Source of the DNA: Paraburkholderia sp. Tr-20389
Lineage (GTDB): Bacteria; Pseudomonadota; Gammaproteobacteria; Burkholderiales; Burkholderiaceae
Reading direction: 5' to 3'
Assembly (NCBI RefSeq): GCF_017104565.1
Contig: NZ_JAAGPD010000050.1
Span: forward strand, 1-64,000
DNA length: 64,000 bases
This document shows, in pieces, positions 40,535 through 57,336 of this stretch. The notes beneath the pieces are model-generated. The model ran no database searches, had not been told where the DNA came from, and saw nothing but the letters and a program-made list of their open reading frames with translations. The translations under genes and the position numbers were made by a program. The stretch's first letter is position 1. Every line of letters starts with the position of its first letter.

Positions 40535-41185
40535 CGCTGGCATCCGCGGTTTGCTTCTGGTTTGCTAGTGTTGCCCCTGTGCGGGGCGGCACTTACTTTC
40601 TTTGCCGCCGCAAAGAAAGTAAGCAAAGAAAGCGGGCTCACACCGCTAGCCCTTGTTTTTGCCTGCGGGCCCCCGACAGTTCTTACGCTTCAGGCGGCAA
40701 CGCGCTGATTTGCGCCCGTTGCCAGCGTGCTAACTCAAGCATCACCCGCTTCACACTCTCGCGTCACGGGCCGCGTTACCAGGCGTCCACTGCCGCCCAG
40801 GTGGCAAACTGTGTGTAGGCCATCGCGCCGGAAGTGCACCACTCCGGACGGAACAGCGGGATCGGTGTCGTAGGAGCGCGAACGCACGCGCTGCGACAAC
40901 CTACACACAGTTTGCCACCTGGGCGGCACAAACCATTCGCTGCCGCTCGCTGCGCTACGGGTGATTGAAGAGGGTGATGCGCCTGTTCAAGGCGCTGGCA
41001 ACGGGCACAAAACAAAGTGTTGCCGTGTGAAGTGCGGGACCCGTTGGGGGCCCGCAGGCAAGAACATGGGCTGGCGGTGTTAGCCCGCTTTCTTTGCTTA
41101 CTTTCTTTGCGGCGGCAAAGAAAGTAAGTGCCGCCCCGCACAGGGGCAACACTAGCAAACCAGAAGCAAAACGCGGATGCCAGCG
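40535..41185. repeat. Nested inverted-repeat element, copy A (forward core)
   Basis: This 651-bp element fills most of the 1.1-kb gap between upp and yebC. Its ends are the inverted pair CGCTGGCATCCGCG and CGCGGATGCCAGCG. Each arm has a perfect 14-bp hairpin with a 4-nt loop (40592-40623 and 41097-41128). Further in are GCCTGCGGGCCCCC blocks and CGTTGCCAGCG blocks in opposite orientation. The centre is a perfect 28-bp inverted repeat (40792-40819 with 40900-40927) around an 80-bp core carrying GTGCACCACTCCGGAC and ATCGGTGTCGTAGGA. Open frames inside are inconsistent between copies. Flanks 40440-40534 and 41186-41265 are weakly related low-complexity tails. Confidence 0.92.
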
Positions 41186-41269
41186 CAACACAACGCGAAA
41201 GCCAGCGAAAACCAAAAACCAAAAACCAAGAACCAAACCGGCAAAGCCCGCGCCTCGAAGGCACAAACC

Positions 41270-41920
41270 TTAATTCTTGGTCCCAAACAACCGATCCCCG
41301 GCATCGCCGAGACCCGGAATAATGTACGCATGCTCGTTCAGATGCGAATCGAGCGAAGCCACAAACAGCTTCACATCGGGATGCGCATCCTGAAACACTT
41401 TCACGCCCTCGGGCGCGGCGACGAGCGCCAAAAACGAAATGTTCTCGCCCGCGACACCGCGGCGCTTCAGCACATCGATCGCATGCACGGCCGAATACCC
41501 CGTCGCAACCATCGGATCGCACAGGATGAAAATCCGGTCCTCGAGATCCGGCAGGCGCACCAGATACTCGACAGGGCGATGATCGTCGTCGCGATACACG
41601 CCGATATGACCGACCCGCGCCGACGGAATCAGCTCGAGCAGGCCGTCCGACATGCCGACGCCCGCCCGCAGCACGGGCACGATCGCGAGCTTCTTGCCGG
41701 CGATCACGGGCGCGTCGATGTCGACGAGCGGCGTGCTCACGCGACGCGTCGTCATCGGCAGGTTGCGGGTGATTTCATAGCCCATCAGCAGCGTGATCTC
41801 GCGCAGCAACTCGCGGAACGTCCGCGTGGACGTGTCGCGGTCGCGCATGTGCGACAGCTTGTGCTGGATCAGCGGGTGATCGAGGATGAAAAGATTGGGA
41901 AAACGGCTGTCCTGAGTCAT
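41270..41920 (-). CDS. upp: Uracil phosphoribosyltransferase
   Basis: This 216-residue salvage enzyme makes UMP from uracil and PRPP. It shows [20 protein letters not shown], the regulatory-loop region VVSTP-type [31 protein letters not shown], the PRPP loop [13 protein letters not shown], and the uracil-binding [12 protein letters not shown] near the end. Length fits the family (E. coli 208 aa). The start MTQDSRFPN at 41920 matches homologues. Copy A of the repeat element begins 85 bases after its stop. Confidence 0.97.
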
Positions 41921-42199
41921 GACGGGGCGCCTCGCGGCGAAGTTGGGCTGGCTGATGATCGTCTGGGGACGTTCTGGCAATTCTCTGGCGCGGCGCTCAC
42001 GCGGCCCACAAGGGCGGCGGTGCGCACTGCGCCGTGACTGGGAGTTTACCGGAAGGGACGGCGCCTGATGAAAGGTATTGCAGCCAGGCCCGGCAGCGCC
42101 GCGTCGATTCTTCTAGAATCGGGGGACAGTTGACCGACCACCCCGGCGCAATACGCGGCAGCTTGGCCGCGTCGCGCGCACGACAACAGGAATAAGCAC

Positions 42200-42979
42200 A
42201 TGGATCTGGGCATCGCAGGAAAAACCGCGCTGGTGTGCGCGGCGAGCAAGGGATTGGGGCGCGGCTGCGCCGAGGCGCTCGCGGCCGAAGGCGTGAACGT
42301 GACGATCGTCGCGCGCACCGCTGAAACGCTCGAAGCGACGGCGGCCGCCATCCGCGCGAACGCGGGCGTCGACGTGCAGGCCGTGGCCTGCGACATCACT
42401 ACGCCCGAAGGCCGCGCCGCGGCGCTCGCCGCCTGCCCGCAGCCGGACATCCTCGTCAACAACGCGGGCGGCCCGCCACCCGGCGACTTCCGCAACTTCA
42501 CGCACGACGACTGGATCCGCGCGCTCGAAGCGAACATGCTGACGCCGATCGAACTGATTCGCGCGACCATCGACGGAATGATGTCGCGCGGCTTCGGGCG
42601 CGTGGTGAACATCACGAGTTCGTCGGTGAAGGCGCCCATCGACGTGCTCGGTCTGTCGAACGGCGCGCGCTCGGGGCTGACGGGCTTCGTCGCGGGCGTC
42701 GCGCGCAAGGTCGCGCCGAACGGCGTGACGATCAACAACCTGCTGCCGGGCATTTTCGACACGGACCGCATCGCCGTGACGTTCGACGCCGCGGCAAAAA
42801 CGCAGAACATCTCCGTCGACGAAGCGCGCAAGCAGCGCATGGCGACGATTCCGGCGCGCCGCTTCGGCACACCGGACGAGTTCGGCCGCGCCTGCGCGTT
42901 CCTGTGCAGCGTGCACGCGGGCTATATCACGGGACAGAACTGGCTGATCGACGGCGGCGCTTACCCGGGCACGTACTGA
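42200..42979 (+). CDS. Short-chain dehydrogenase/reductase with atypical catalytic site
   Basis: This 259-residue SDR has the Rossmann motif in a divergent form (CAASKGLGRGC instead of TGxxxGIG) and the NNAGG motif. The catalytic Ser is retained in VNITSSSVK. The expected YxxxK is missing; LSNGARSG (residues 152-159) stands in its place. This matches the putative ketoacyl-ACP-reductase-like SDR group without a full catalytic tetrad (cd05344-like, from memory). It ends in the typical YITGQNWLIDGGAYPGTY. A ribosome binding site precedes the ATG. It opens a rightward run with mgsA and a quinone oxidoreductase. Confidence 0.88.
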   Translation: MDLGIAGKTALVCAASKGLGRGCAEALAAEGVNVTIVARTAETLEATAAAIRANAGVDVQAVACDITTPEGRAAALAACPQPDILVNNAGGPPPGDFRNFTHDDWIRALEANMLTPIELIRATIDGMMSRGFGRVVNITSSSVKAPIDVLGLSNGARSGLTGFVAGVARKVAPNGVTINNLLPGIFDTDRIAVTFDAAAKTQNISVDEARKQRMATIPARRFGTPDEFGRACAFLCSVHAGYITGQNWLIDGGAYPGTY

Positions 42980-43051
42980 CGTGCCGCGCCGCGGCACATC
43001 GCGAACACCCATAACGACAACACACGACGACAACACAAGAGGAGCAACGAC

Positions 43052-43441
43052 ATGACAACACGCGTCGCGCTGATCGCGCACGATCACAAGAAGGACGACA
43101 TCGTCAAACTGGCGGGGGAGTACGTCGACACGCTCGCACGCTGCGAGTTGCTCGCGACGGGCACGACGGGAGGCCGCATCGCCGATACGCACGGTCTGAA
43201 GGTCGAGCGGATGCTGTCCGGTCCGCATGGCGGCGACCTGCAGATCGGTGCACAACTGGCCGAAGGCCGTGTCGACATGGTGATCTTCCTGCGTGACCCG
43301 ATGACGCCGCAGCCGCATGAACCCGATATCAACGCTCTGGTCCGTGCGTGCGACGTCCACAACGTGCCCTGTGCCACGAATATCTCGACGGCACGGATGA
43401 TCCTCGACGTGTTGACGCTGCGTCTCGCGCAGCAGGTCTGA
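43052..43441 (+). CDS. mgsA: Methylglyoxal synthase
   Basis: This 129-residue enzyme converts dihydroxyacetone phosphate to methylglyoxal and phosphate, a bypass that relieves sugar-phosphate stress. It has the phosphate loop ATGTTGGRI, the catalytic Asp region [34 protein letters not shown], and CATNISTA. Length is slightly under E. coli MgsA (152 aa). AGAGGAG precedes the ATG. It lies 72 bases after the SDR and 64 before the quinone oxidoreductase, probably in one operon. Confidence 0.95.
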
Positions 43442-43505
43442 TGGCGTCGTCCGATTTCATTCACGCAATGCGCGCCACTCGGGCGCGAACGAATCTGGAG
43501 ACAAC

Positions 43506-44480
43506 ATGACCAAGGCAATTCGATTCGACAAGACGGGCGGCCCGGAAGTGATGAAGTGGGTCGACGTCGAGGTGGGCGAACCGGGCAATGGCGAGATCCG
43601 CATCAGGCAGCATGCTGTCGGCCTGAACTATATCGACGTGTATTTCCGCACCGGGCTGTATCCGCTGCCGCTGCCGGGCGGGCTCGGCATGGAAGCGGCG
43701 GGCGAGGTGGTCGCGGTCGGTCCGGACGTGACGGACGTGAAAGTGGGCGAGCGCGTCGCGTATGTCGCGCGGCCGCCGGGCGCGTACGCGCAGGAGCGCG
43801 TGCTGTCCGCGGCGCAGGTCGTGAAGCTGCCTGACGCGATCGGCTATGAAGAGGCGGCCTCCGTCATGTTGCAGGGCTTGACCGCCCAATATCTGCTGCG
43901 CCGCACGTACCCGGTCAAGCAGGGCGACACGATTCTGATCCAGGCGGCCGCGGGCGGCGTCGGCCTGCTCGTGTGCCAGTGGGCAAAGGCGCTGGGCGCG
44001 ACAGTGATCGGCACGGTCAGCTCCGACGAGAAGGCGGAGATCGCGCAGGCGCACGGCTGCGACTATCCCATCGTCTATACGCGCGAGAACTTCACGAAGC
44101 GCGTGCGCGAAATCACGAACGGCGCAGGCGTGCCCGTCGTGTACGACTCGATCGGCAAGGATACCTTTACGGCCTCGCTCGACTGTCTTGCGCCGCTCGG
44201 GATGTTCGTGAGCTTCGGCAATGCGTCGGGCCCGCTGCCGCCCATTGATTCGTCGGAGTTCGCCGGGCGCGGCTCGCTCTTCTTCACGCGGCCAACCCTC
44301 TTCACCTATATGGGCAAGCGTAGCGACTACGACGCGATGGCGGCCGAACTGTTCGACGTGATCGGCTCGGGCAAGGTGAAGACGAGCATCAATCAGCGCT
44401 ATGCGCTGTCAGATGTCGGCAAGGCGCACGCCGATCTGGAGGCACGGAAAACGACGGGGTCGACGGTTTTGCTGCCTTGA
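43506..44480 (+). CDS. NADPH:quinone oxidoreductase (MDR, QorA-like)
   Basis: This 324-residue zinc-independent medium-chain reductase resembles QorA. It has GLNYIDVYFRTGLYPLPLPG, the cofactor-binding IQAAAGGVGLLVCQWAKALG, and the C-terminal ARKTTGSTVLLP. It reduces quinones by one electron using NADPH. It lacks the zinc-ligand cysteines of alcohol dehydrogenases. CTGGAG lies before the ATG. With mgsA upstream, a shared role in carbonyl or electrophile stress is possible but not shown. Confidence 0.93.
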   Translation: MTKAIRFDKTGGPEVMKWVDVEVGEPGNGEIRIRQHAVGLNYIDVYFRTGLYPLPLPGGLGMEAAGEVVAVGPDVTDVKVGERVAYVARPPGAYAQERVLSAAQVVKLPDAIGYEEAASVMLQGLTAQYLLRRTYPVKQGDTILIQAAAGGVGLLVCQWAKALGATVIGTVSSDEKAEIAQAHGCDYPIVYTRENFTKRVREITNGAGVPVVYDSIGKDTFTASLDCLAPLGMFVSFGNASGPLPPIDSSEFAGRGSLFFTRPTLFTYMGKRSDYDAMAAELFDVIGSGKVKTSINQRYALSDVGKAHADLEARKTTGSTVLLP

Positions 44481-44751
44481 GGATTTTCGCCTCGCGACCA
44501 TGCATGTTGCATGGGGCGCGAGATTGACGCGCGTATGCGGCCAGTTGTATCCAGTCGGCGTACGCGCGTCAACCCACAGTTGGTGCGCCGGGCGACGCCC
44601 CGACAATCGATGTGGTGCCATACATCAAGCAATGCGCATCGTGTTTACCTCCAGCTGACTATATACTTCTGCGGCGACTCGAAGTTCGCATTAAATGATT
44701 GGTTGTACTTATCTATAAATTGATTCGGTATCCATACTTATAAAAACGCCA

Positions 44752-46743
44752 ATGAAACTGTTAGCCAGCCTCATCACCCTGTCTTTTTTTGCAGTCGCTC
44801 ACGCGCAACCTGTGCCGGCGTCGAGCGCTCCCAGCGCCGGCTCGGACATTGCGTCAAAGGACGCAACGGCAGCCACGCTGCGCGCGAACGACCAGATACG
44901 CTCCCAGCTGAACTTCTCCGACCGGCGCGACTTCGACGATGCACGGCGCGGCTTCATCGCCACCCTGCCGCAGCCGGTGCTCAAAGGCAGCGGCGGGCGC
45001 ACCGTCGTCGATCTGACGAAATACGACTTCCTGCGCAACACTGACGCCGCGCCGCCCACGGTCAATCCGAGCCTGTGGCGTCAGGAGCAGATTCTGGCCA
45101 TCCACGGCCTGTTCAAGGTGGTGGACGGCATCTATCAGGTTCGCAACATCGACCTGGCCAACATCACCTTCGTGCGCGGCAAGACGGGCTGGATCGTCGT
45201 CGATACGGGCAGCTCCGAGGAAAGCGCGAAGGCAGCGCTCGATCTCATCAACGACAAGGTGGAGCGCCTGCCTGTCTCGGCCGTCATCATTACGCACAGC
45301 CATGTGGATCACTTCAGCGGCTTGCGCGGCGTCGTCAGCGAGCAGGACGTCCGCTCCGGCAAAGTGAAGCTGATCGCACCCGATGGCTTCATGGAAGAGG
45401 CCGTCAGCGAGAACGTATTCGCGGGCAACGCGATGAGCCGTCGCGCGTCGTACATGTACGGCGATCTGCTGCCGAAGAGCCCGCGCGGCACGGTCGGCAG
45501 CGGGCTCGGGCTCGTCAACGCGACGGGCACGCTGACCCTGCTGCAGCCGAATACGCTGGTGCACAAGACGGGCGAAAAGCTCACGGTGGACGGCATCGAT
45601 GTCGTGTTCCAGATGGCGCCCGGCACGGAAGCGCCTGCGGAAATGCTGTTCTACTTCCCGCAATACAAGACGCTCGACGTCGCCGAGGACGCGACCCATT
45701 CGCTGCACAATCTGCTGACGCTGCGCGGCGCGAAGGTCCGCGATGCGGGGAAATGGGCAGAAGCGCTCGACCAGACCATCGACATGTTCGGCGGCGACGT
45801 CGCGGTGTCGATGGCCAGCCACCACTGGCCGCAATGGGGCAACGACCGCGTCGTCGAACATCTGAAGAAGCAGCGCGATCTGTACAAGTACATCAACGAC
45901 CAGACGCTGCGCATGGCGAACGAAGGCCTGACGATGCACGAAATCGCCGAACAGTTCGTGCTTCCCGATGCGCTCGCGAAGGAGTTCTACAACCGCGGCT
46001 ACTACGGCAATCTGAAGCACGACGTTCGCGCGACCTATCAGATGTATCTCGGCTGGTGGGACGCGAACCCGGCGAACCTCGATCCGCTGCCGCCGGCGGA
46101 GGAAGCGAAGCGCTACGTCGACCTGATCGGCGCGGACAACATCATGGCCAACGCGCGCAAGGCGTTCGAGCAAGGCGACTATCGCTGGGTCGCGACGATC
46201 ACGAGCAAACTCGTGTTCGCGCAACCGGAAAACCAGGCGGCGCGCCAGCTCGAGGCCGATGCGCTCGAGCAGCTCGGCTATCAGACCGAGTCGGGACCGG
46301 TGCGCAACGTGTACCTGACTGGCGCGGAAGAACTGCGCAACGGCATCCGCAAGATGGCTGCGCCTAACACCGCAGCGCCCGACATCATCGCGGCCATGAC
46401 GACGGACATGTTCCTCGACTTCCTCGCGATTCATCTGAACGGCCCGCGCGCCGCCGACGTCCATTACACGTTCAACCTCGTGCTGCCCGACGCGAACGAG
46501 CGCTACGCGGTCACGGTCGAAAACGGCGTGATGATCCACAGCAAGGGCAAGACGCTGCCGAATGCCGACGCAACCATCACTTTCGACCGTTCTACACTGG
46601 ATGACATCGCGCTCGGCAAGCTGCGCCTGACGGATCTCGCGGATAGCGGGAAAGTGAAGTTCGAGGGCGACAGGGCCGGGTTCAAGGCGCTGCTCGGACT
46701 GTTCGACAAGTTCGACTACTGGTTCGCGATCACGACGCCGTAA
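44752..46743 (+). CDS. Exported alkyl sulfatase, metallo-beta-lactamase fold (SdsA1/YjcS type)
   Basis: This 663-residue enzyme has a signal peptide (MKLLASLITLSFFAVAHA). The metallo-beta-lactamase domain carries the dinuclear zinc motif THSHVDHFSG, and the family-specific LAIHGLFKVVDGIYQVR and SMASHHWPQWGN are present. A helical dimerisation region and a C-terminal SCP2-like domain (from about residue 540, GIRKMAAPNT onward) complete the SdsA1 layout. The family removes sulfate from alkyl sulfates such as SDS, supplying sulfur or carbon. It has a separate, AT-richer upstream region (44640-44750) and ends in a hairpin terminator. Confidence 0.93.
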   Translation: MKLLASLITLSFFAVAHAQPVPASSAPSAGSDIASKDATAATLRANDQIRSQLNFSDRRDFDDARRGFIATLPQPVLKGSGGRTVVDLTKYDFLRNTDAAPPTVNPSLWRQEQILAIHGLFKVVDGIYQVRNIDLANITFVRGKTGWIVVDTGSSEESAKAALDLINDKVERLPVSAVIITHSHVDHFSGLRGVVSEQDVRSGKVKLIAPDGFMEEAVSENVFAGNAMSRRASYMYGDLLPKSPRGTVGSGLGLVNATGTLTLLQPNTLVHKTGEKLTVDGIDVVFQMAPGTEAPAEMLFYFPQYKTLDVAEDATHSLHNLLTLRGAKVRDAGKWAEALDQTIDMFGGDVAVSMASHHWPQWGNDRVVEHLKKQRDLYKYINDQTLRMANEGLTMHEIAEQFVLPDALAKEFYNRGYYGNLKHDVRATYQMYLGWWDANPANLDPLPPAEEAKRYVDLIGADNIMANARKAFEQGDYRWVATITSKLVFAQPENQAARQLEADALEQLGYQTESGPVRNVYLTGAEELRNGIRKMAAPNTAAPDIIAAMTTDMFLDFLAIHLNGPRAADVHYTFNLVLPDANERYAVTVENGVMIHSKGKTLPNADATITFDRSTLDDIALGKLRLTDLADSGKVKFEGDRAGFKALLGLFDKFDYWFAITTP

Positions 46744-46773
46744 CGGACTGCGCTTCGATTGCTGCGCGTAGGG

Positions 46774-46808
46774 GAGGGAGCCATCGGTGGTAGCCGGTGG
46801 CTCCCTCT
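46774..46808 (+). terminator. Hairpin terminator after the alkyl sulfatase gene
   Basis: A stem of about 13 bp (AGGGAGCCATCGG pairing with CCGGTGGCTCCCT, one G-T pair) has a six-base loop. The following T content is weak (CTGTCGTTT), so termination strength is uncertain. It insulates the kdp promoter region just downstream. Confidence 0.65.
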
Positions 46809-46812
46809 GTCG

Positions 46813-46835
46813 TTTACGCGTTTTTTACACGGCCC
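46813..46835 (+). promoter_or_regulatory. KdpE-like operator upstream of kdp
   Basis: TTTACGCG TTTTTTACAC GGCCC resembles the KdpE binding site known from E. coli kdp (from memory TTTATAC followed by a T-run, ACACC and a GC-rich end). Its place 100 bp upstream of the first kdp gene fits activation by KdpE during potassium limitation. Confidence 0.65.
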
Positions 46836-46844
46836 ATCCAATCT

Positions 46845-46875
46845 TTGACCAGCCCTTTACGCCGATCGGCATAAC
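46845..46875 (+). promoter_or_regulatory. Candidate kdp promoter
   Basis: TTGACC (46845-46850) and CATAAC (46870-46875) are spaced by 19 bp; a shifted GCATAA reading gives 18 bp. The long spacer fits an activator-dependent promoter, with the KdpE-like site directly upstream. Confidence 0.5.
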
Positions 46876-46914
46876 GTTGCGCACATCCATCGTCCAACAA
46901 ATGGAGAACATGAA

Positions 46915-47028
46915 ATGGATGTGCTGTACGTCGGGGGTATCGCGCTTTTTGCTGCGCTGACCTTTGGATTGATCGCCGGGTGCGAGAAGCTGACGCGCTA
47001 CGGCCGTGGTCAGGGAGCGCGCTCATGA
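46915..47028 (+). CDS. Small membrane protein encoded upstream of kdpF, 37 aa
   Basis: This 37-residue protein has one hydrophobic helix (VLYVGGIALFAALTFGLIAG) followed by CEKLTRYGRGQGARS, a basic cytoplasmic-type tail. GGAGA lies seven bases before the ATG, and its TGA overlaps the kdpF ATG (ATGA), so translation is probably coupled. I recall similar small genes before kdpF in other bacteria, usually unnamed. A role as an extra accessory subunit or regulator of the KdpFABC pump is inferred only from context. Confidence 0.7.
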   Translation: MDVLYVGGIALFAALTFGLIAGCEKLTRYGRGQGARS

Positions 47029-47117
47029 ACTGGATGCTCTGGCTCTCGGGCGCGGCGACCGCGCTGCTGTTCGCCTATCTCGTCTATGCGCTGCTGCGCG
47101 CGGAGGACATTGAATGA
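47025..47117 (+). CDS. kdpF: Potassium-transporting ATPase subunit KdpF
   Basis: This 30-residue peptide has a single membrane helix (WLSGAATALLFAYLVYALL) and ends RAEDIE, typical of KdpF. KdpF stabilises the KdpFABC complex, probably at the KdpA-KdpB interface. Both ends overlap neighbours by ATGA, so it is coupled to the small gene before it and to kdpA after it. It is easily missed because of its size. Confidence 0.92.
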   Translation: MNWMLWLSGAATALLFAYLVYALLRAEDIE

Positions 47118-48919
47118 ACCTCAACAATGTCCTGCAGCCAGCGCTCTTCATTGTCGTGCTGCTAGCGGCCGCCGTGCCCGTTTCGCGCTATCTGTCGCGC
47201 GTGATGGACGGCACCTCGCGCGTGGTCAAACTGGGCGGCCCCGTCGAGCGAGTGCTGTACCGTCTCGCGGGCGTCGATCCATCGCAGGAAATGGGTTGGA
47301 AGCACTACGCGATCGCCACGCTCGCGTTCAATCTGCTCGGCGTCGTGTTTCTGTATGTGCTGCTGCGCGTGCAGGGCTGGCTGCCCGGCAATCCGCAGCA
47401 GTTCGGCGCGATGACCGTCGACGGTGCGTTCAACACCGCGATCAGCTTCGTCACCAACACGAACTGGCAGGACTACACGCCGGAACAGACGGTCGGCTAT
47501 CTGACGCAGATGCTCGGTTTCACGGTGCAGAACTTCTTGTCGGCGGCGACGGGCATCGTCGTCGTGATCGCGCTGGTGCGCGGTTTCGCGCGCCACACCG
47601 CGCAGACCATCGGCAACTTCTGGGTCGACATCACGCGCGTGACGCTCTACGTGCTGCTGCCGATGGCGGCCGTCATCGCCGCGCTGCTGATGAGCCAGGG
47701 CGTGATCCAGAACTTCAAGTCCTATGAAGACGTGCCGACGCTGCAGACCACCACGTACGCCGCGCCGAAAATGGATGCGCAGGGCAATCCCGTGAAGGAC
47801 GCGAAGGGCAACCCCGTGACCGTCGATACACCTGTGAAGTCGCAGACCATCGCGATGGGCCCCGTCGCCTCGCAGGAAGCGATCAAGATGCTCGGCACGA
47901 ACGGCGGCGGCTTCTTCAACGGCAATTCCGCGCATCCGTACGAGAACCCGACACCGTTCGCGAACTTCGTGCAGATCTTCTCGATCCTGATCATTCCCGC
48001 TGCGTTGTGTCTGGTGTTCGGCCGCATGATCGGCGATCGCCGGCAAGGCATCGCGGTGCTCGCGGTGATGACGATCGCGTTCGCCGTCTGTGTCGCGAGC
48101 GAGATCGGCGCCGAACAGGGCGGCAATCCCCTCTTTACGTCGCTGCATGTCGACCAGTCCGCGAGCGCGTTGCAGGCGGGCGGCAACATGGAAGGCAAGG
48201 AGACGCGCTTCGGCATCGCGCAGTCGGGCATCTTCACGGTCGCGACGACGGCGGCTTCTTGCGGCGCTGTCGCCAATACGCACGATTCGCTCACGCCGCT
48301 CGGCGGCCTCGTGCCGATGCTGCTGATGCAACTCGGTGAAGTGATCTTCGGCGGCGTGGGTTCGGGTCTCTACGGGATGCTGGTGTTCGCGCTGCTCGCG
48401 GTGTTCGTCGCGGGGTTGATGATCGGGCGGACGCCGGAATACGTCGGCAAGAAGATCGAAGCGTATGAGATGAAGATGGTGTCGATCGTCGTGCTGCTCA
48501 CGCCGCTGCTCGTGCTCGTCGCGACGTCGATCGCGGTGCTCACGGACGCGGGCAAGGCGGGCATCCTGAATCCGGGCGCGCATGGCTTCTCGGAGATTCT
48601 CTACGCGTTCAGTTCGGCGGCGAACAACAACGGCAGTGCGTTCGCGGGCCTCACGGTGAGCACGCCGTTCTACAACTGGCTGACGGCGATCGCGATGTGG
48701 TTCGGCCGCTTCGGCACGATCGTCCCGGTGCTCGCGATTGCCGGCTCGCTCGCCGCCAAGAAACGCATTGCCGTGACGGGCGGCACGCTGCCGACGCACG
48801 GACCGCTCTTTGTCGTGCTGCTGCTCGGCACGGTGCTGCTGGTCGGCGCGCTCACCTACGTGCCCGCGCTCGCCCTCGGCCCCGGCGTCGAACATCTGAT
48901 GATGATCGCGGGTCATTGA
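47114..48919 (+). CDS. kdpA: Potassium-transporting ATPase potassium-binding subunit KdpA
   Basis: This 601-residue channel-like subunit selects and takes up potassium. It has about ten membrane helices and four pore loops, seen at SFVTNTNWQDY, LGTNGGGFFNGNSAHP, TTAASCGAVANTHDS and AFSSAANNNGSAFAG. It is longer than E. coli KdpA (557 aa) because of a periplasmic stretch near residues 215-240 with the internally repeated DAQGNPVKDAKGNPV. It starts inside the kdpF stop overlap and belongs to the kdpFABC operon. Confidence 0.97.
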   Translation: MNLNNVLQPALFIVVLLAAAVPVSRYLSRVMDGTSRVVKLGGPVERVLYRLAGVDPSQEMGWKHYAIATLAFNLLGVVFLYVLLRVQGWLPGNPQQFGAMTVDGAFNTAISFVTNTNWQDYTPEQTVGYLTQMLGFTVQNFLSAATGIVVVIALVRGFARHTAQTIGNFWVDITRVTLYVLLPMAAVIAALLMSQGVIQNFKSYEDVPTLQTTTYAAPKMDAQGNPVKDAKGNPVTVDTPVKSQTIAMGPVASQEAIKMLGTNGGGFFNGNSAHPYENPTPFANFVQIFSILIIPAALCLVFGRMIGDRRQGIAVLAVMTIAFAVCVASEIGAEQGGNPLFTSLHVDQSASALQAGGNMEGKETRFGIAQSGIFTVATTAASCGAVANTHDSLTPLGGLVPMLLMQLGEVIFGGVGSGLYGMLVFALLAVFVAGLMIGRTPEYVGKKIEAYEMKMVSIVVLLTPLLVLVATSIAVLTDAGKAGILNPGAHGFSEILYAFSSAANNNGSAFAGLTVSTPFYNWLTAIAMWFGRFGTIVPVLAIAGSLAAKKRIAVTGGTLPTHGPLFVVLLLGTVLLVGALTYVPALALGPGVEHLMMIAGH

Positions 48920-48976
48920 TACGCCACACGCGACATACGAAGGCGCAAAAAACAGGCGAAGCAATTAGAGGAAGAA

Positions 48977-51061
48977 ATGACTGACCATTCCGCCACCCGG
49001 TCCATGTTCGATCCGGCGCTCGTGCGCCCGGCGATCGTGGACTCGTTCAAGAAACTCAAGCCGCACACGCAGTTCCGCAACCCGGTGATGTTCTGCGTGT
49101 ACGTCGGCAGCATCCTGACGACGATCCTCTGGATCGCCGCGCTGATCGGCCAGGCCGAGGCGCCCGCGGGCTTCATTCTCGCGGTGTCGCTGTGGCTGTG
49201 GTTCACGGTGCTGTTCGCGAACTTTGCCGAGGCGCTCGCGGAAGGGCGCTCGAAAGCGCAGGCGGCATCGCTGCGCAGCGCGAAGAAAGACGTGATGGCG
49301 AAGAAGCTCAATGAGCCGCATCCGAAGTCGCCGATTCGCATCATGACGGCCTCGGACCTTCGCAAGGGCGATGTCGTGCTCGTCGAAACGGGCGACGTGA
49401 TTCCCGCCGACGGCGAAGTGATCGAGGGTGTCGCGTCCGTTGACGAATCGGCCATCACGGGTGAATCCGCGCCCGTGATCCGCGAATCGGGCGGCGACTT
49501 TTCGTCGGTGACGGGCGGCACGCGCGTGCTGTCGGACTGGATCGTCGTGAAGGTGACGGCCAATCCGGGCGAGGCGTTTCTCGACCGCATGATCGCGATG
49601 GTCGAAGGCGCGAAGCGTGCGAAGACGCCGAACGAAATCGCGCTGACCATTTTGCTCGTCGCGTTGACCATCGTGCTGCTGCTTGCGACGGCCACGCTGC
49701 TGCCGTTCTCGATGTTCTCCGTCGAAGCAGCGAAGGCTGGACACGTGGTGACGATCACTGCGCTCGTCGCGCTGCTCGTGTGCCTGATTCCGACGACGAT
49801 CGGCGGTCTGTTGTCCGCGATCGGCGTGGCGGGCATGAGCCGGATGATGCAGGCCAACGTGATCGCCACGTCGGGCCGCGCCGTCGAAGCCGCAGGCGAC
49901 GTCGATGTGCTGCTGCTGGACAAGACGGGCACGATCACGCTCGGCAACCGTCAGGCATCGGCGTTCATACCTGCTTCGGGCGTCGCGGAAGAAGCGCTCG
50001 CGGATGCGGCGCAGCTGTCGTCTCTGTCGGACGAAACGCCGGAAGGCCGCAGCATCGTCGTGCTTGCGAAGCAGCGCTTCAATATCCGCCAGCGCGACAT
50101 GGCCACGCTGCATCCCGTGTTTCTCGCATTTAGCGCACACACGCGCATGAGTGGCGTCGATCTGCCCGGCCGCGAAATCCGCAAGGGCGCGGCGGACGCC
50201 GTCAAGCACTACGTCGAAGCGCACGGCGCCCAGTTCCCCGCTTATGTCGCGAATGCGGTGTCGGACGTCGCGCGACGCGGCAGCACGCCGCTCGTGGTGG
50301 CGGAGAAGGCGGAAGGCGCTGCGCGCGTGCTTGGCGTGATCGAACTGAAGGACGTGGTGAAGGGCGGCATCAAGGAGCGCTTTGCCGAACTGCGCAAGAT
50401 GGGCATCAAGACCGTGATGGTGACGGGCGACAACCGTTTGACGGCGGCCGCGATTGCTGCGGAAGCGGGTGTCGACGATTTCCTCGCCGAAGCCACGCCG
50501 GAAACGAAGCTCGCGACGATCCGCGCGCATCAGGCGGAAGGGCGCCTTGTCGCGATGACGGGCGACGGCACCAATGACGCACCCGCGCTCGCGCAGGCCG
50601 ACGTCGCCGTTGCGATGAACACGGGCACGCAGGCCGCGAAGGAAGCGGGCAACATGGTCGACCTCGATTCGAATCCGACCAAGCTGATCGAGATCGTCGA
50701 GATCGGCAAGCAGATGCTGATGACGCGCGGTTCGCTGACGACGTTCTCGATCGCGAACGACGTCGCCAAGTATTTCGCGATCATTCCGGCGGCGTTCGCG
50801 ACCACGTATCCGGCATTGAACGCAGTGAACGTGATGCATCTGGCGACGCCGACGTCCGCGATCATGTCGGCCGTGATCTTCAACGCGCTGATCATCGTGC
50901 TGCTGATTCCTCTGGCGCTGAAGGGTGTGAAGTACCGGCCGCTCGGCGCGGCGATCCTGCTGAGGCGCAATCTGCTGATCTATGGACTTGGCGGCATCGT
51001 GGTGCCGTTCATCGGGATCAAGCTGATCGACATGGTGCTGGCCGCGTTCGGCTGGGTGTGA
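48977..51061 (+). CDS. kdpB: Potassium-transporting ATPase ATP-binding subunit KdpB
   Basis: This 694-residue P-type ATPase subunit powers KdpFABC. It has the actuator motif [10 protein letters not shown] (site of inhibitory Ser phosphorylation in E. coli). The phosphorylation motif DKTGT has Asp315, and the P-domain carries [21 protein letters not shown]. Seven hydrophobic segments are visible. AGAGGAAGAA lies directly before the ATG. It is the third membrane component in the operon. Confidence 0.98.
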
Positions 51062-51102
51062 GTGCTACGCGAGCTTTGAATAGAGAACAAGGAAGCTGAA
51101 TC

Positions 51103-51684
51103 ATGAAATCGCTTTTTCGCCCGATGGTTGTGATCTTCGCCGTGCTGGCGGCGCTCACGGGGCTGGCGTATCCCGCCGTGATGACGGCGTTCGGCCAGGC
51201 CGTTTTTCATAACGAAGCCAACGGCAGCATGATCGAGCAGAACGGCAAGGTGGTCGGCTCGCGGCTGATCGGCCAGCAGTTCGATGCGCCGCAGTACTTC
51301 TGGGGGCGGTTGTCGGCGACGTCGCCGATGCCGTACAACGCTCAGGGGTCGAGCGGCTCGAACTTGGGGCCGATCAATCCGGCTCTCGCCGATGAAGTGA
51401 AGGGGCGGCTCGATGCCTTGAAGGCGGCTGGGCATCAGCCTGCTGGTGTGGCTGTTCCTGTCGATCTCGTGACTTCTTCAGGCAGTGGCCTTGATCCTGA
51501 GATTTCGCCTGCGGCCGCGGCTTATCAGATTGAGCGGGTTGCTGCCGCACGGAAGATGAATGTGAACGATGTCGCGGCGTTGGTGGACCGCTATACGCGC
51601 GGTCGGCAGTTTGGGGTCTTCGGCGAGGCGCGGGTGAATGTGCTTGAGCTCAATCTCGCGTTGGATGACGCGCAGCGTGGTTAG
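51103..51684 (+). CDS. kdpC: Potassium-transporting ATPase subunit KdpC
   Basis: This 193-residue protein has one N-terminal membrane helix ([20 protein letters not shown]) and a periplasmic domain. The domain carries [24 protein letters not shown], given here as family blocks GSRLIGQ and YFWGRLS, and the final segment [17 protein letters not shown]. KdpC assists assembly and potassium affinity. AAGGAAG precedes the ATG. Downstream, a repeat element separates it from kdpD, unlike the compact kdpFABCDE order usual in relatives. Confidence 0.97.
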
Positions 51685-51765
51685 TGGTTTTTGATGTCTG
51701 CGACGCAAGCGCCATGTTTGCCTTCTCGGCGCGGGCTACGCCTTTTGGTTTTTGCTCTGCGCTTT

Positions 51766-52422
51766 CGCTGGCCTCCGCGGTTTGCTTCTGGTTTGCTGGC
51801 GTTGCCCCTGTGCGGGGCGGCACCTACTTTTCTTTGCAGCGGCAAAGAAAAGTAGGCAAAAGAAAGCCGCTCACCCCGCTAGCTCTTGTGCTTGCCTGCG
51901 GGCCCCCAACGGGTCCCGCACTTCGCGCGGCAACGCGCTAATTTATGCTCGTTGCCAGCGCTCTTATAACCGCATCACCCACTTCACACTCCCGCGTCAC
52001 CGACCGCATTACCAGGAAGTCCACGGCCGCCCAGGTGGCAAACTGTGTGTAGGTCGTCGCGATCAAAGTGCACCACTCCGGACTGAACTTCGAGATCGGT
52101 GTCGTAGGATCGCCAACGTGTACGGTGCGACCGCCTACACGCAGTTTGCCACCTGGGCGGCGCAGACGAGTCGCTGCCGCTGGATGTGCTACGGGGGATT
52201 GAAGCGGGTGATGCGTCTGTTCAGGGCGCTGGCAACGGGAGGAAAGAAGTATGTTGCCGCGTGGGGCGTAAGAACTGTCGGGGGCCCGCAGGCAATCACT
52301 GGCACTGGCGGGGTTAGCGGCTTTCTTTTGCCTACTTTTCTTTGCCGCTGCAAAGAAAAGTAGGTGCCGCCCCGCACAGGGGCAACGCCAGCAAACCAGA
52401 AGCAAAAACGCGGATGCCAGCG
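51766..52422. repeat. Nested inverted-repeat element, copy B (forward core), inside the kdp locus
   Basis: This 657-bp copy occupies the 878-base gap between kdpC and kdpD. It has the same plan as copy A. The arm hairpins have 15-bp stems (51823-51856 and 52331-52364) with a stem sequence that differs from copy A on both strands, so pairing is kept. The central 28-bp inverted repeat (52026-52053 with 52134-52161) has one mismatch. The core is in the same orientation as A. Related tails extend to about 51696 and 52515. The right arm and core, about 52048-52480, match copy C in reverse complement at about 97%. Confidence 0.93.
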
Positions 52423-52562
52423 AAAGCAAAAAGCCGAAGGCAAGACCGAAACCCAAAGGCGAAGCCCGCGCCGAGAAGGCCAGACTGGCGCCTGCGTCGC
52501 AGACAAGAAAAAACCCAAAAACCATGTCACCATACCCGCACGAAAGTGCATAACCACCCACT

Positions 52563-55421
52563 ATGCCCCGCCCCGACCCCGACGAGCTCCTCGACAAACT
52601 CCAGCGAGAAGAAGAAAAACGCCAGCGCGGCAAGCTCAAGATCTTCTTTGGCGCATCAGCCGGCGTCGGCAAGACCTATGCAATGCTGCAAGCAGCAAAA
52701 CGCCGCAAGGAAGAGGGCATCGACGTCGTCGTCGGCATCGCGGAGACGCACGGCCGCAGCGAAACAGCGGCGCTACTCGAAGGCCTCGAAGTCGTGCCGC
52801 TCGCGCGCATCGAATATCGCACCCGGCTGCTAGCGGAATTCAACCTCGACGCCGCGCTCGAACGCAAGCCGCAACTGATCCTCGTCGATGAACTCGCGCA
52901 CTCGAACGTGCAAGGCGCCCGCCATGCCAAACGCTGGCAGGACGTCTACGAACTGCTCGATGCAGGCATCGACGTCTACACGACCGTCAACGTCCAGCAC
53001 CTCGAAAGCCTCAACGACGTGGTCGGCCAGATCACGGGCATCCGCGTGTGGGAGACGGTGCCCGACCGGGTATTCGACCGCGCCGACGAAGTGACGCTCG
53101 TCGATCTGCCCGCCGAAGAACTGCTCGACCGCATGCGCGACGGCAAGGTCTATATGCCGCAGCAAGCCGAGCGCGCGGTGCGCAACTTCTTTCGCAAAGG
53201 CAACCTGATCGCGCTGCGCGAACTGGCGCTGCGGCGCACCGCCGATCGCGTCGATGCGCAGATGCGCGAGTACCGCGCCGATCGTTCGATCGAACGCATC
53301 TGGCAGGCACGCGAGCGGCTGCTCGTGTGTGTCGGTCCCGGTCCCGAGGCGCCGTTGCTGGTGCGCGCGGCGGCGCGTCTTGCAGCAAGCCTGAAGGCCG
53401 ACTGGATCGCCGTGTATGTCGAAACGCCGAAGCTGCAGCGCCTGTCCGACGCACGCCGCGAACGCACCCTCGATGCACTCAAGCTCGCCGCCGAACTCGG
53501 CGCCGAAACGGCGACGCTCGCAGGCGCCGATGCGGTCCCGACATTGATCGGCTACGCACGCGTGCGCAACGTGTCGAAGCTGGTGGCGGGCGGCTCGTCG
53601 GCCACGGGCGTCGCGCGCTGGCTGCGCCGTCCATTCGGCGAGCGGCTCGCGGAACGGGCCAGCGATCTCGATCTCACGCTGATTCGTGCGAGCAATGACG
53701 AAACGTGCGCAGCAGGCACGACGCGCGATCGCATCGTCGACGCGGAAGGACGTGCGTGGCGCGATGCGCTGATCGCCGCACGCGACCGCCGCTCGCCGCC
53801 GCGCAGCTATGCGTGGGCCGTCGCGATCTGCGCGGGCGTGACGTTGGTCGCGAGCCAGCTGATCGACCGGATCGATCTCACGAACCTTGTGATGCTGTAT
53901 CTGCTCGGCGTGATCTTCACAGCCGTGAAGTTGGGCCGCGGGCCGGGCGTGATGCTGTCGTTCCTGTCCGTTGCCGCATTCGATTTCTTCTTCGTGCCGC
54001 CTCGCATGTCGCTCTCGGTGAGCGACACGCAATATCTGCTGACGTTCTTCGGCATGCTGCTGACCTCGCTCGTGATCGGCCATCTGACGTCGAGTCTGCG
54101 GCGCGAGGCGAGCGTCGCGCGACGGCGCGAGCAGCGCACGGGCGCCATGTACGCGATGGCGCGTGAACTCGCGGCGGCGTTGACGACCGAGCAGATCGTC
54201 GGCATTGGCAGCCGTCATGTGAGCGAGGTGTTTCGCGCGCGCGTCGCGATGCTGCTGCCCGATAGCGCGGACCAGGTGAAGCAGAAGATCGACGATCCCG
54301 ACACGAGCATCATGCTCGATCACGCGTCGCTCGATGTCGATGTCGGCCAGTGGGTCTACGATCAGCAAAAGCCTGCCGGACACGGTACGGACACGCTGCC
54401 CGCCGCCAAGGCGCTCTATCTGCCGCTGCGCGCGCCGATGCGCACGCGCGGCGTGCTCGCCGTCACGATGCAGGACGAACGCGAACTCGATGTGCCCGAG
54501 CAGCAGCGCATGCTCGACGCGTTCGCCGCGCAGATCGCGCTCGCGCTGGAACGCGTGCATTACGTCGATATCGCGCGCGATGCGCTCGTCAGCATGGAAT
54601 CGGAGCGGCTGCGCAACTCGCTGCTGTCCGCGATTTCGCACGATCTGCGCACGCCGCTCACGGCGATTGTCGGTTTTTCGTCGATGCTGGCCGCGCAGCG
54701 CGACGCTCGCACCGATGCTCAGGGCGAACTGGTCGATGCGATCCACGAAGAGGCGTTGCGCATGACGGGCATCGTCACGAATCTGCTCGACATGGCGCGT
54801 CTGCAGGCGGGCAGTCTCAAGCTGAACCGCCAGTGGTCGCTGCTCGAAGAGACGGTCGGCTCGGCGCTGCGCGACTGCCGGCGCACGCTCGCGCGGCATC
54901 CTGCGAAGGTGTCGCTGCCCGCCGATCTTCCGCTGTTGCAGCTCGATGCCGTGCTGATGGAACGGCTCTTCGCGAACCTGTTCGAGAACGCCGCGAAGTA
55001 CGTGCCACCCGACACGCCGTTGATGATCGGCGCGCAATGCATCGAAGAGAACGGCAAGCCGTTCGTGCGTGTCACCGTCGACGATACGGGACCGGGCTTG
55101 CCTTCGGGGATGGAAGCCCGCATCTTCGAGAAGTTCACTCGCGGCGAAAAGGAATCGGCGACGCCCGGCATCGGCCTTGGGCTTGCGATCTGCCGCGCGA
55201 TTGCGGAAGCGCATGGCGGTAAAATCGGCGCGGCCAACCGCATCGCTGCCGATGGCCGCGTCGAAGGCGCGCGCTTCTGGTTCACGCTGCCCATCGAGAC
55301 GCCGCCGCCCGTGCCCGATGTGTCGGATCTGCCCGATGAAGCAGCCGGCGAGCCCGATCCCGAACCGCACGCTCGACAACGAGCCGATACGCATCCGCAT
55401 ACTCACGATAACCACTCATGA
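52563..55421 (+). CDS. kdpD: Sensor histidine kinase KdpD
   Basis: This 952-residue kinase senses potassium limitation. The N-terminal KdpD domain has Walker A GASAGVGKT and VDELAHSNVQGARHAKRWQD-type Walker B sequence, followed by a universal-stress-like domain. Four membrane helices (about residues 410-505) and a GAF-like domain come next. The HisKA region has phospho-acceptor His693 in SAISHDLRTPL, and the ATPase domain has VTVDDTGPGLP and GIGLGLAICRAIAEAHGG. No clear Shine-Dalgarno sequence precedes the ATG, which lies 140 bases after the repeat element core. It may depend on a promoter within or beyond that element. Confidence 0.97.
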   Translation: MPRPDPDELLDKLQREEEKRQRGKLKIFFGASAGVGKTYAMLQAAKRRKEEGIDVVVGIAETHGRSETAALLEGLEVVPLARIEYRTRLLAEFNLDAALERKPQLILVDELAHSNVQGARHAKRWQDVYELLDAGIDVYTTVNVQHLESLNDVVGQITGIRVWETVPDRVFDRADEVTLVDLPAEELLDRMRDGKVYMPQQAERAVRNFFRKGNLIALRELALRRTADRVDAQMREYRADRSIERIWQARERLLVCVGPGPEAPLLVRAAARLAASLKADWIAVYVETPKLQRLSDARRERTLDALKLAAELGAETATLAGADAVPTLIGYARVRNVSKLVAGGSSATGVARWLRRPFGERLAERASDLDLTLIRASNDETCAAGTTRDRIVDAEGRAWRDALIAARDRRSPPRSYAWAVAICAGVTLVASQLIDRIDLTNLVMLYLLGVIFTAVKLGRGPGVMLSFLSVAAFDFFFVPPRMSLSVSDTQYLLTFFGMLLTSLVIGHLTSSLRREASVARRREQRTGAMYAMARELAAALTTEQIVGIGSRHVSEVFRARVAMLLPDSADQVKQKIDDPDTSIMLDHASLDVDVGQWVYDQQKPAGHGTDTLPAAKALYLPLRAPMRTRGVLAVTMQDERELDVPEQQRMLDAFAAQIALALERVHYVDIARDALVSMESERLRNSLLSAISHDLRTPLTAIVGFSSMLAAQRDARTDAQGELVDAIHEEALRMTGIVTNLLDMARLQAGSLKLNRQWSLLEETVGSALRDCRRTLARHPAKVSLPADLPLLQLDAVLMERLFANLFENAAKYVPPDTPLMIGAQCIEENGKPFVRVTVDDTGPGLPSGMEARIFEKFTRGEKESATPGIGLGLAICRAIAEAHGGKIGAANRIAADGRVEGARFWFTLPIETPPPVPDVSDLPDEAAGEPDPEPHARQRADTHPHTHDNHS

Positions 55422-56116
55422 GCGACCTGAGCATTACCGTCGTACTGATCGAAGACGAGCAACAGATTCGCCGCTTCGTGCGGGCGTCGCTGGAAGGCGA
55501 GGGCATGACCGTGTACGACGCGCCGACGGGCAAGCAGGGGCTGATCGAAGCGGCGACGCGCAAGCCCGATCTCGTGATCGTCGATCTGGGCTTGCCCGAC
55601 ACCGACGGTCTCGACGTGATCCGCGAACTGCGCGGCTGGAGCGAGTTGCCTGTGATCGTGCTGTCGGCGCGCACGCAGGAGAGCGAGAAGGTTGCCGCGC
55701 TCGATGCAGGCGCCGACGACTATCTGACCAAGCCGTTTGGCGTATCCGAACTGCTGGCGCGGATCCGCGCACATTTGCGCCGGCGCAACCAGGGCGGCCC
55801 GGCCGAGACGCCGCAGGTACATTTCGGCGGCGTGACCGTCGATCTGGCCTTGCGGCAGGTATCACGCGACGGCGAGCCCGTGCATCTGACGCCGCTCGAA
55901 TACCGGCTGCTCGCGACGCTCGTGCGTCATGCGGGGCGTGTGCTCACGCATCGCCAGTTGTTGCGCGACGTGTGGGGGCCGTCGCATGTCGAAAGCCATC
56001 ACTATCTGCGCATCTACATGGCGCATTTGCGGCAGAAGCTGGAGCGCGATCCGGCGCAGCCCGAGCATATCGTCACGGAGACGGGGGTGGGGTATCGGTT
56101 GGTCGGTGTTGCCTGA
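55418..56116 (+). CDS. kdpE: Response regulator KdpE
   Basis: This 232-residue OmpR-type regulator activates kdpFABC. The receiver domain has IEDEQQIRRF, phospho-acceptor Asp56 in VIVDLGLPDTDGL, and LTKPFGVSELLAR. The winged-helix domain has LTPLEYRLLATLVRHAGRV and RIYMAHLRQKLERDP. The start codon overlaps the kdpD stop (ATGA), so the two are translationally coupled. It most likely binds the operator-like site before the kdp operon. Confidence 0.97.
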   Translation: MSDLSITVVLIEDEQQIRRFVRASLEGEGMTVYDAPTGKQGLIEAATRKPDLVIVDLGLPDTDGLDVIRELRGWSELPVIVLSARTQESEKVAALDAGADDYLTKPFGVSELLARIRAHLRRRNQGGPAETPQVHFGGVTVDLALRQVSRDGEPVHLTPLEYRLLATLVRHAGRVLTHRQLLRDVWGPSHVESHHYLRIYMAHLRQKLERDPAQPEHIVTETGVGYRLVGVA

Positions 56117-56184
56117 GGCGGACAGTGTTGCGGCGATTCATATCGGATCGCGTATGGCTGGCGGTGAAAGGCGCACCATCTTGA

Positions 56185-56242
56185 TATAATTGTGGGTGGC
56201 AAGGACGGCCTTGCTGCATCCGCTTTCAACGGGGACGGCCCC
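56185..56242 (+). promoter_or_regulatory. Promoter -10 box and guanidine-II (mini-ykkC) riboswitch controlling gdx
   Basis: A perfect TATAAT (56185-56190) is followed at once by two hairpins with ACGG loops: GCAAGG-ACGG-CCTTGC (56199-56214) and GGGG-ACGG-CCCC (56231-56242). Paired stem-loops with ACGR loops define the mini-ykkC motif, known as the guanidine-II riboswitch. The second hairpin lies ten bases before the GGGAG ribosome binding site of the exporter gene, which fits control of translation by guanidinium. The -35 box is poor. Confidence 0.9.
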
Positions 56243-56265
56243 ATCGATCAATGGGAGTTCGTCTC

Positions 56266-56586
56266 ATGTCCTGGATTCTTCTCTTTATCGCCGGTCTGCT
56301 GGAAGTTGCGTGGGCGGCCGGTCTCAAGACCTCCGAAGGTTTCACTCGTTTCTGGCCGTCGGTGTTCACCGTCGTGACGGCGCTCGGCAGTTTCGTGCTG
56401 CTCGCAATGGCTATGCGGCAGTTGCCGCTGGGAACCGCTTACGCGGTGTGGACGGGGATTGGCGCCGTCGGCGCGTTTATCTTCGGCATCGTCATGATGG
56501 GTGAAGCGGTGACCGTTGCACGCGTTGGCAGCGCGGTGCTCATTGTTGTGGGGTTGATCGGGCTTAAGTTGTCGTCGGGGCATTAA
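56266..56586 (+). CDS. gdx: Guanidinium exporter Gdx (SMR family, formerly SugE)
   Basis: This 106-residue small multidrug resistance protein has four membrane helices. It has the Gdx-type first helix with the essential Glu ([21 protein letters not shown]) and the conserved GFTRFWPS loop. The second half contains [19 protein letters not shown]. Gdx proteins exchange guanidinium for protons as antiparallel dimers. GGGAG before ATG 56266 fixes the start; an ATG 15 bases upstream would overlap the ribosome binding site. The guanidine-II riboswitch immediately upstream strongly supports guanidinium as substrate. Confidence 0.95.
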
Positions 56587-56681
56587 GGTTTTTTTGTTGT
56601 CTGCGACGCAGTCGCCATTGTTGCCTTCTCGGCGCGGGCTTCGCCTCTTGGGTTTCGGTCTTGCCTTCGGCTTTTTGCTTT

Positions 56682-57336
56682 CGCTGGCATCCGCGTTTTT
56701 GCTTCTGGTTTGCTGGCGTTGCCCCTGTGCGGGGCGGCACCTACTTTTCTTTGCAGCGGCAAAGAAAAGTAGGCAAAAGAAAGCCGCTAACCCCGCCAGT
56801 GCCAGTGCTTGCCTGCGGGCCCCCGACAGTTCTTACGCTCCACACGGCAACGTACTTCTTTTCTCCCGTTGCCAGCGCCCTGAACAGACGCATCACCCGC
56901 TTCAATCCCCCGTAGCACATCCAGCGGCAGCGACTCGTCTGCGCCGCCCAGGTGGCAAACTGTGTGTAGGCGGTCGCGCCGTACACGTTGGCGCTCCTAC
57001 GACACCGATCCAGAAGTTCAGTCCGGAGTGGTGCATTTGCGTCGAGACAGCCTACACATAGTTTGCCACCTGGGCGGCAGTGGGACGTCTGGTAACGCAG
57101 TCCGCGTCGCGGGAGTGTGGAGTGGGTGATGCGTGCATTAGCACGTTGGCAACGCGCGAAAGCAAGTGCGTTGCCGCGTGAAGCGTAAGAACTGATGGGG
57201 GCCCGCAGGCAACAAGTAGCACTGGCGGTGTGAGCCCGCTTTCTTTGCTTACTTTCTTTGCGGCGGCAAAGAAAGTAAGTGCCGCCCCGCACAGGGGCAA
57301 CGCATGAACTACCAACACCAAAACGCGGATGCCAGC
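56682..57336. repeat. Nested inverted-repeat element, copy C (reverse core)
   Basis: This 655-bp copy lies between gdx and the DUF4126 gene. Its left arm and core are nearly the reverse complement of copy B's right arm and core. Its left hairpin (56740-56773) is of the B type, while its right hairpin (57248-57279) is of the A type. The central 28-bp inverted repeat (56943-56970 with 57051-57078) has one mismatch. Related tails reach about 56590 and 57425; the right tail has CAACAG trinucleotide repeats and a 17-bp direct repeat (57379-57395, 57406-57422). Short open frames inside are not conserved in frame. Confidence 0.93.

Follow-up and report, generated by a model that had tools for sequence, protein, structure and literature searches.

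The closest described counterparts of the sequence treated here are the BIME, REP and REPIN repeats of Escherichia coli and Pseudomonas, intergenic and gene-end-biased mosaics of palindromic modules, which are non-coding and occur in many copies. REP and REPIN themselves are palindromes of 20-40 nt with a GTAG-type foot, whereas the element described below is far larger. RIME, ERIC, Correia and BOX are likewise palindromic intergenic repeats situated near genes. The stretch analysed (hereafter the window; 64,000 nucleotides of contig NZ_JAAGPD010000050.1 of Paraburkholderia sp. Tr-20389) contains three copies of a repeat element with a core of about 655 bp. The element is like BIME, REP and REPIN in being an intergenic, gene-end-biased and non-coding mosaic of palindromic modules in many copies, but differs from them in its size (650-800 bp), near-constant length and directional middle, and also in showing differing middles and orientations at shared sites; no intact RAYT was found in the source genome. 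RIME, ERIC, Correia and BOX are shorter than the element, and we know of no exchange of different middles between the same ends for them. No description of it was found in the open-licence literature searched. The family belongs to the intergenic mosaic kind, is undescribed to our knowledge and is unusual in its size, in the exchange of middles at one site and in the structure of its ends.

We consider it probable, though far from certain, that the element is a genome-wide, non-autonomous and non-coding mosaic repeat, homogenised by recombination, with triple-helix pseudoknot ends and, least certainly, a function as a symmetrical 3'-end module. Recombination between copies as its engine is the best-supported reading of the sequence comparisons. 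If true, the family would clearly exemplify, in a bacterium, how scattered intergenic repeats undergo concerted evolution, here with a middle that resembles a cassette, and the ends are candidates for a long natural triple helix in bacteria.

A constant-size repeat family in the source genome

An earlier note on the window, made from its letters, had described a non-coding, intergenic family of constant size and nested symmetry, and the survey of the 9.0-Mb source genome (G000) shows it to be real and large. About 118 copies are present, judged by a 17-mer of the central repeat, which occurs twice per copy and gave 118 + 118 matches versus 1 + 1 in the control; the family accounts for ~0.85% of the genome (118 x 0.65 kb). 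Scoring of 40 of 144 candidates yielded 40 near-full-length copies and four fragments. A profile search of the fetched stretches, which cover most copies, found 116 places: 103 of full length (646-657 bp; 52 in plus and 51 in minus orientation) and 13 partial, four of the latter being pieces of two copies split by insertion sequences (IS). The mean pairwise identity between copies is 0.841. The end motif gave 128 + 125 matches in the same genome, from which it follows that solo ends exist.

The coordinates and the plan given for the window copies held throughout: core lengths of 651, 657 and 655 bp, terminal GCTGGC(A/C)TCCGCG pairs in all three, one perfect hairpin of 32-34 nt per arm, and a 28-bp central inverted repeat with a directional GTGCACCACTCCGGAC core, which differs by one base in copy 3 (Table 1). 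The arms of copy 1 (230 nt) are 87% complementary and those of copy 2 (184 nt) 85%. Copy 3 is inverted relative to copy 2 (alignment of 608 nt, 89%). The copies are neither restricted to this place nor poorly aligned, an outcome the note had allowed for, and their likeness is not due to chance: the match between copies 3 and 2 has E = 6.8e-237, and those of additional copies have E < 1e-180. Folding z-scores, from 20 shuffles each, were -32 for copy 2 as RNA and -39 for copy 1 as DNA.

The 655-bp core is present as described, but its edge is soft: outer modules (TTTTTTGTCTGCGACGC...) bring the conserved unit to about 0.8 kb. One outer module, GTCTGCGACGCAGTCGCC, has 92 matches in G000 versus 6 in the control; its interpretation as a separate family was rejected, as 38 of 42 exact matches lie within 300 bp of a known copy. 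T-rich mini-modules, this one among them, are read one way from the gene and are located between the core and the adjacent stop codon.

For gene calls we used our own simple codon-usage gene caller, applied to 107 copies (103 full and four long partial). None of them overlaps an open reading frame (ORF) with a coding signal by more than 100 bp, and to this extent the claim that no consistent frame is carried stands; long open frames do cross copies, e.g., one of 203 aa in copy 2. The same count led us to reject a decayed IS as the source of the family, with heavily decayed remnants not searched for.

The middle of the element was found in 16 of 145 genomes of the genus and the end motif in 126 of 143, the source genome being included in both counts, with up to 511 ends in one genome; at one mismatch or fewer, the end motif was not found in 17 of the 143. 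At the level of the family Burkholderiaceae, with two candidates scored in each genome, matches to copy 2 were obtained in 125 of 299 genomes; those listed outside the source genome comprise an end only, except one of ~200 bases. The strict end motif occurs in three of 300 genomes of the order, which marks the family as narrow. In eight of the 21 matching plasmid records, all Paraburkholderia, 80% or more of the element is present. Among the matches listed, the ends are spaced by 464-468 in G120 (7 pairs), 467-468 in G306 (3 pairs), 561-565 in four of the five pairs of G303 and ~558 in the source genome. The spacing is scattered in G299, G302, G304 and G305, with insertions explaining the widest ones read.

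Probable sequence exchange between copies

Copies at orthologous sites are no more alike than random copies. Across 21 orthologous-site pairs, assigned by hand, the identity of the partner ranked from 1 to 100 among the 103 copies of G000 (median 68), and the orientation of the core was kept in eight. Since copies at orthologous sites do not track each other and orientation is so often changed, concerted evolution by recombination between copies is suggested. In the tree, the copies sampled from G307 group in one clade, and so, separately, do those from G344, from G362 and from G373 (the last joined by the kdp copy of Ac-20365); the copies of five related genomes form a joint clade.

Three shared sites carry an unrelated middle between the same ends in a relative (G351). 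These middles, compared at three of the four G351 sites, are 0.65-0.71 identical to the window copies (shuffled, 0.64-0.69) and 0.86-0.88 identical among themselves, with ends 0.79-0.98 identical. The two arms behave as independent. Left and right arms have a similarity of 0.750 in the same copy and 0.746 in different copies (0.861 versus 0.832 for the outer 60 bp), and long-range arm-arm pairing as a conserved feature was rejected, because arms within a copy match no better, the outer 60 bp excepted. The hairpin 2 types of the two arms (34 A/B, 32 A/A, 18 B/A, 11 B/B and 8 unclear) are combined nearly independently by hand estimate. Homogenisation within genomes and groups of close species, together with differing middles at fixed sites, implies a transfer of information from copy to copy, and in this sense the proposed 'self-propagating' unit is partly borne out.

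Mobility in the transposon sense is not supported. Site tests based on synteny only, in G307, G351 and G344, were aimed at 23 sites, of which 15 were resolved and eight unresolved. Among the 15, ten have the element (in the four G351 cases the model is matched at an end and no further), one a remnant and four none. All resolved sites are occupied in G307 (5/5) and G351 (4/4), and the element is absent at four of six in G344. The site of copy 3 has no element in 6/6 loci of relatives (L095-L100), where the gap measures ~100-150 bp versus ~870 in the window; no simple duplication is readable there, since the gap sequence of the relatives can hardly be traced in the window. Neither this site in the six relatives nor the four element-free sites of G344 showed a clean target duplication. 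At the kdpC-kdpD site, the best 80 of 253 kdpD loci include five with a full copy, one where the contig begins inside a copy, and 74 in which no copy was detected.

Shared occupancy could also arise if each species had received its copies independently, by insertion into the same hot-spot gaps, with no inheritance. Convergent gaps are few, which makes coincidence possible, and the empty sites of G344 would fit; however, the full occupancy of G307 and G351 is, in our judgement, far above coincidence for ~118 copies in 9 Mb. Furthermore, the four empty G344 sites retain pieces resembling outer modules, which we read as likely deletion leftovers. Independent insertion is, in our estimate, improbable.

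The unit has two conserved and structured ends facing inward around a lineage-specific, internally palindromic middle. Under recombination between copies, these would overwrite one another by gene conversion with the shared inverted ends serving as homology, so that a copied middle could land either way round and one middle could come to dominate a genome. To drive this process, it would suffice that the palindromes provoke breaks and that another copy serves in their repair.

Several observations weigh against this interpretation. Four G351 copies scatter inside the G000 clade, the copies of G000 not being exclusive, and the G307 clade has a support of 0.648. The 21 pairs are partly dependent: five share one G000 copy and one relative's copy is paired twice, while four rely on a one-sided flank and one flank is of uncertain orientation. 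One pair does rank first. End spacing varies in G302, G304 and G305, no recombination tract was caught between near-identical strains, and loss followed by re-insertion might equally yield concerted evolution.

Structure of the ends

Triple-helix pseudoknots of the H type are formed by telomerase RNA and the SAM-II riboswitch. The SAM-V riboswitch is described as another (PMC6061858). Each end of the element comprises two hairpins (1 and 2), a third strand of purines mirroring the purine strand of hairpin 2, and a tail that pairs with the hairpin 2 loop. The strands read AAAGAAA/AAAGAAA in type A, AAAGAAAA/AAAAGAAA in type B, AAAGAGAA/AAGAGAAA in type C and AAAGAAGA/AGAAGAAA in type D (one end). 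At one level, types C and D show a joint change in all three strands (pyrimidine, purine and third). The mirror rule holds in 392 of 396 ends and in 220 of the 224 where it is informative. Over six strand types the mirror register agrees at 47 of 48 levels, compared with 31 of 48 for the direct register and 22-27 of 36-42 for slid ones; on these figures we rejected the idea that the third strand stems from a direct repeat.

Covariation was analysed in 39 ends of the 8-level length class, i.e., 26 ends plus 13 of the same length with Burkholderia-type loops (type A ends, of another length, fall outside both counts). As many as 97.2% of cells are paired and 11 of 26 pairs have changed on both sides, values that none of 500 shuffles reached. 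Hairpin 2 is paired in 99.2% of cells and the loop-tail helix in 92.7%, with five and four pairs changed on both sides, respectively; for the 26 ends without Burkholderia-type loops the corresponding figures are 99.1% and 99.2%. Of the 28 distinct combinations of loop and tail, 20 have 4 bp or more of pairing if the G before the tail is included (shuffled mean 8.8, maximum 18). A count without this G gave 163 of 301 at 4 bp or more (shuffled mean 74).

Read on the outward strand, the parts of an end follow one another as S1-L1-S2, the order found in H-type pseudoknots, and L1 runs parallel to the purine strand of S2, as is the rule in pyrimidine-motif triplexes. Like the known triple-helix pseudoknots, they combine two crossing helices with compensatory changes and a third strand in register with the stem purines, all three strands co-changing in register. 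We infer that the ends form a triple-helix H-type pseudoknot, as RNA or single-stranded DNA. Unlike the known examples, this one is deduced from sequence, would have up to eight levels and would occur at both ends of a DNA repeat. An end would fold into hairpin 1 plus the pseudoknot, and the third strand along hairpin 2 would be pyrimidine on one DNA strand and purine on the other.

Some features speak against such a fold. The pattern search behind the 396 ends admits only those with a purine third strand, and few independent changes bear on the mirror rule (the A/B length change and the substitutions of types C and D). The pyrimidine strand alone is changed in two ends (L256 and L203), and in another (L282) it is the third strand that deviates. 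In Burkholderia-type ends the loop-tail helix is reduced to 2-3 contiguous bp. Hairpin 1 pairs better on the inward strand, where its U-G pairs favour inward folding, whereas a canonical triple-helix pseudoknot needs the outward strand.

The earlier note knew of no named family that fits. This is correct for the whole element, but the ends resemble Rfam RF02421 (Bp1_684, a Burkholderia small RNA (sRNA) family), which matches the outer ends of the element, all six of those in the window, at 22.6-27.3 bits, under its gathering cut-off of 44. The Rfam family has one end, in contrast to the two-ended element. A solo end of B. cepacia (L236) lies between lpdA and aceF, and in PMC3521395, the source paper of RF02421, a figure legend puts pdhB and lpdA among the neighbours of Bp1_Cand684. 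A match of copy 3 to Rfam MIR918 (34.3 bits; gathering 268) was taken as chance.

Placement beside genes and search for a helper

The unit usually sits directly beyond a stop codon. Of the 107 copies, 56 are in convergent, 48 in tandem and three in divergent gaps, compared with 11, 125 and 57, respectively, for gaps of 60 bp or more that lack the element in these stretches, a local background, as the stretches were picked for holding copies. Median distances from the core edge are 85 bp to a gene 3' end (n = 160) and 200 bp to a gene start (n = 54). The element may serve its flanking genes as a symmetrical 3'-end module, in transcript stability or termination; this role is the least certain part of our interpretation.

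The same placement would be expected if the unit were an RNA or DNA device under selection, such as a bidirectional terminator, a 3'-end stabiliser, an sRNA or a nucleoid site, the copies of one genome being similar by co-adaptation and not by recombination. The rarity of divergent gaps, the short distance to gene 3' ends and the compensatory changes in hairpin, loop-tail helix and mirror strand are consistent with it, and Bp1_Cand684 is listed in PMC3521395 as validated by reverse transcription PCR in B. pseudomallei. However, promoter avoidance equally predicts the bias to gene ends, and selection alone fails to explain differing middles at one site or an unstable orientation. The absence from the four G344 sites and of the end motif from 17 genomes of the genus is also at odds with it. 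We regard such a device as possible but doubtful. A fuller scheme, in which the repeat drives its own homogenisation through breaks, repair from other copies and middle swaps in either orientation, its triple-helix ends doubling as 3'-end RNA modules, is speculative and, taken as a whole, rather unlikely.

Another candidate is a miniature inverted-repeat transposable element (MITE) or a REPIN-like element that depends for its movement on a helper (the transposase of a RAYT, of IS200/IS605 or of another IS), with repeated bursts from a master copy accounting for the concerted evolution. Hairpin ends, the intergenic preference and strong expansions in some genomes are in its favour, as is the element-free copy 3 site of the six relatives. 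Against it, most resolved sites are common to several species and the element-free sites read revealed no clean target duplication; no search of an IS library with the ends was made. Nor was the suggested RAYT helper recovered in intact form: the single PF01797 match of the source genome (L094; 10 candidates scored) has GAVQLL where the HUH motif belongs, and eight of ten relatives have only weak matches to the same domain (22.6-26.9 bits). Strong ones (113.9-142.9 bits, two per genome) were found in G331 and G372, those of G331 containing a stop. A transposase-like ORF is present in eight of the ten elements with 1.3-3.3 kb between their ends; the ORFs differ in kind and have the look of subsequent insertions. 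Overall, we consider transposition by a helper unlikely.

The L094 product is a RAYT-like Y1_Tnp protein (25.4 bits), and a 237-aa frame matches PF01797 at 26.6-26.9 bits in 10 of 10 relatives checked. An autonomous version of the element was rejected, the ORFs of the long elements being IS3-, IS481- and IS256-like by reading alone. Two elements with ~1.7 kb between the ends (L250 and L253) contain an ORF of 150-187 aa, also found in L251, which is possibly cargo or a helper. Two copies of the source genome (L047, C18:5743-7577; L086, C90:175319-177150) have a 1.17-kb insert at the same spot beside hairpin 2, flanked by TAAG and judged IS5-like by reading alone. Some copies in other species are broken near this spot.

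Table 1 Features of the three element copies in the window
Feature	Position	Strand	Remark
Copy 1, core 651 bp	40535..41185	+	between yebC (39439-40212 -) and upp (41270-41980 -)
Copy 1 left end, hairpin 1	40570..40590	+	pairing also in other ends
Copy 1 left end, hairpin 2 (type A)	40592..40623	+	
Copy 1 left end, mirror (third) strand and loop-pairing tail	40624..40635	+	mirror rule
Copy 1 central 28-bp inverted repeat (40792-40819 / 40900-40927)	40792..40927	.	around directional core 40834-40849
Copy 1 right end, mirror strand and tail	41083..41096	-	
Copy 1 right end, hairpin 2 (type A)	41097..41128	-	
Copy 1 right end, hairpin 1	41130..41150	-	
Copy 2 outer module	51688..51713	+	few bases beyond kdpC stop codon
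Copy 2, core 657 bp	51766..52422	+	between kdpC (51103-51684 +) and kdpD (52563-55421 +)
Copy 2 left end, hairpin 1	51801..51821	+	
Copy 2 left end, hairpin 2 (type B)	51823..51856	+	
Copy 2 left end, mirror strand and tail	51857..51870	+	mirror rule
Copy 2 central inverted repeat	52026..52161	.	around core 52068-52083
Copy 2 right end, mirror strand and tail	52317..52330	-	
Copy 2 right end, hairpin 2 (type B)	52331..52364	-	
Copy 2 right end, hairpin 1	52366..52386	-	
Copy 2 outer module, right side	52487..52504	-	
Copy 3 outer module	56599..56616	+	directly beyond SMR gene stop codon
Copy 3, core 655 bp, directional core reversed	56682..57336	-	between SMR-family gene (56251-56586 +) and DUF4126 gene (57606-58217 +)
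Copy 3 low-coordinate end, hairpin 1	56718..56738	+	
Copy 3 low-coordinate end, hairpin 2 (type B)	56740..56773	+	
Copy 3 low-coordinate end, mirror strand and tail	56774..56787	+	
Copy 3 central inverted repeat	56943..57078	.	around reversed core 57021-57036
Copy 3 high-coordinate end, mirror strand and tail	57234..57247	-	
Copy 3 high-coordinate end, hairpin 2 (type A)	57248..57279	-	copy 3 is an A/B hybrid
Copy 3 high-coordinate end, hairpin 1	57281..57301	-	

Upstream of copy 3, a guanidine-II riboswitch (window positions 56197-56243, plus strand; 43.4 bits, gathering 32) directly precedes the SMR-family gene.

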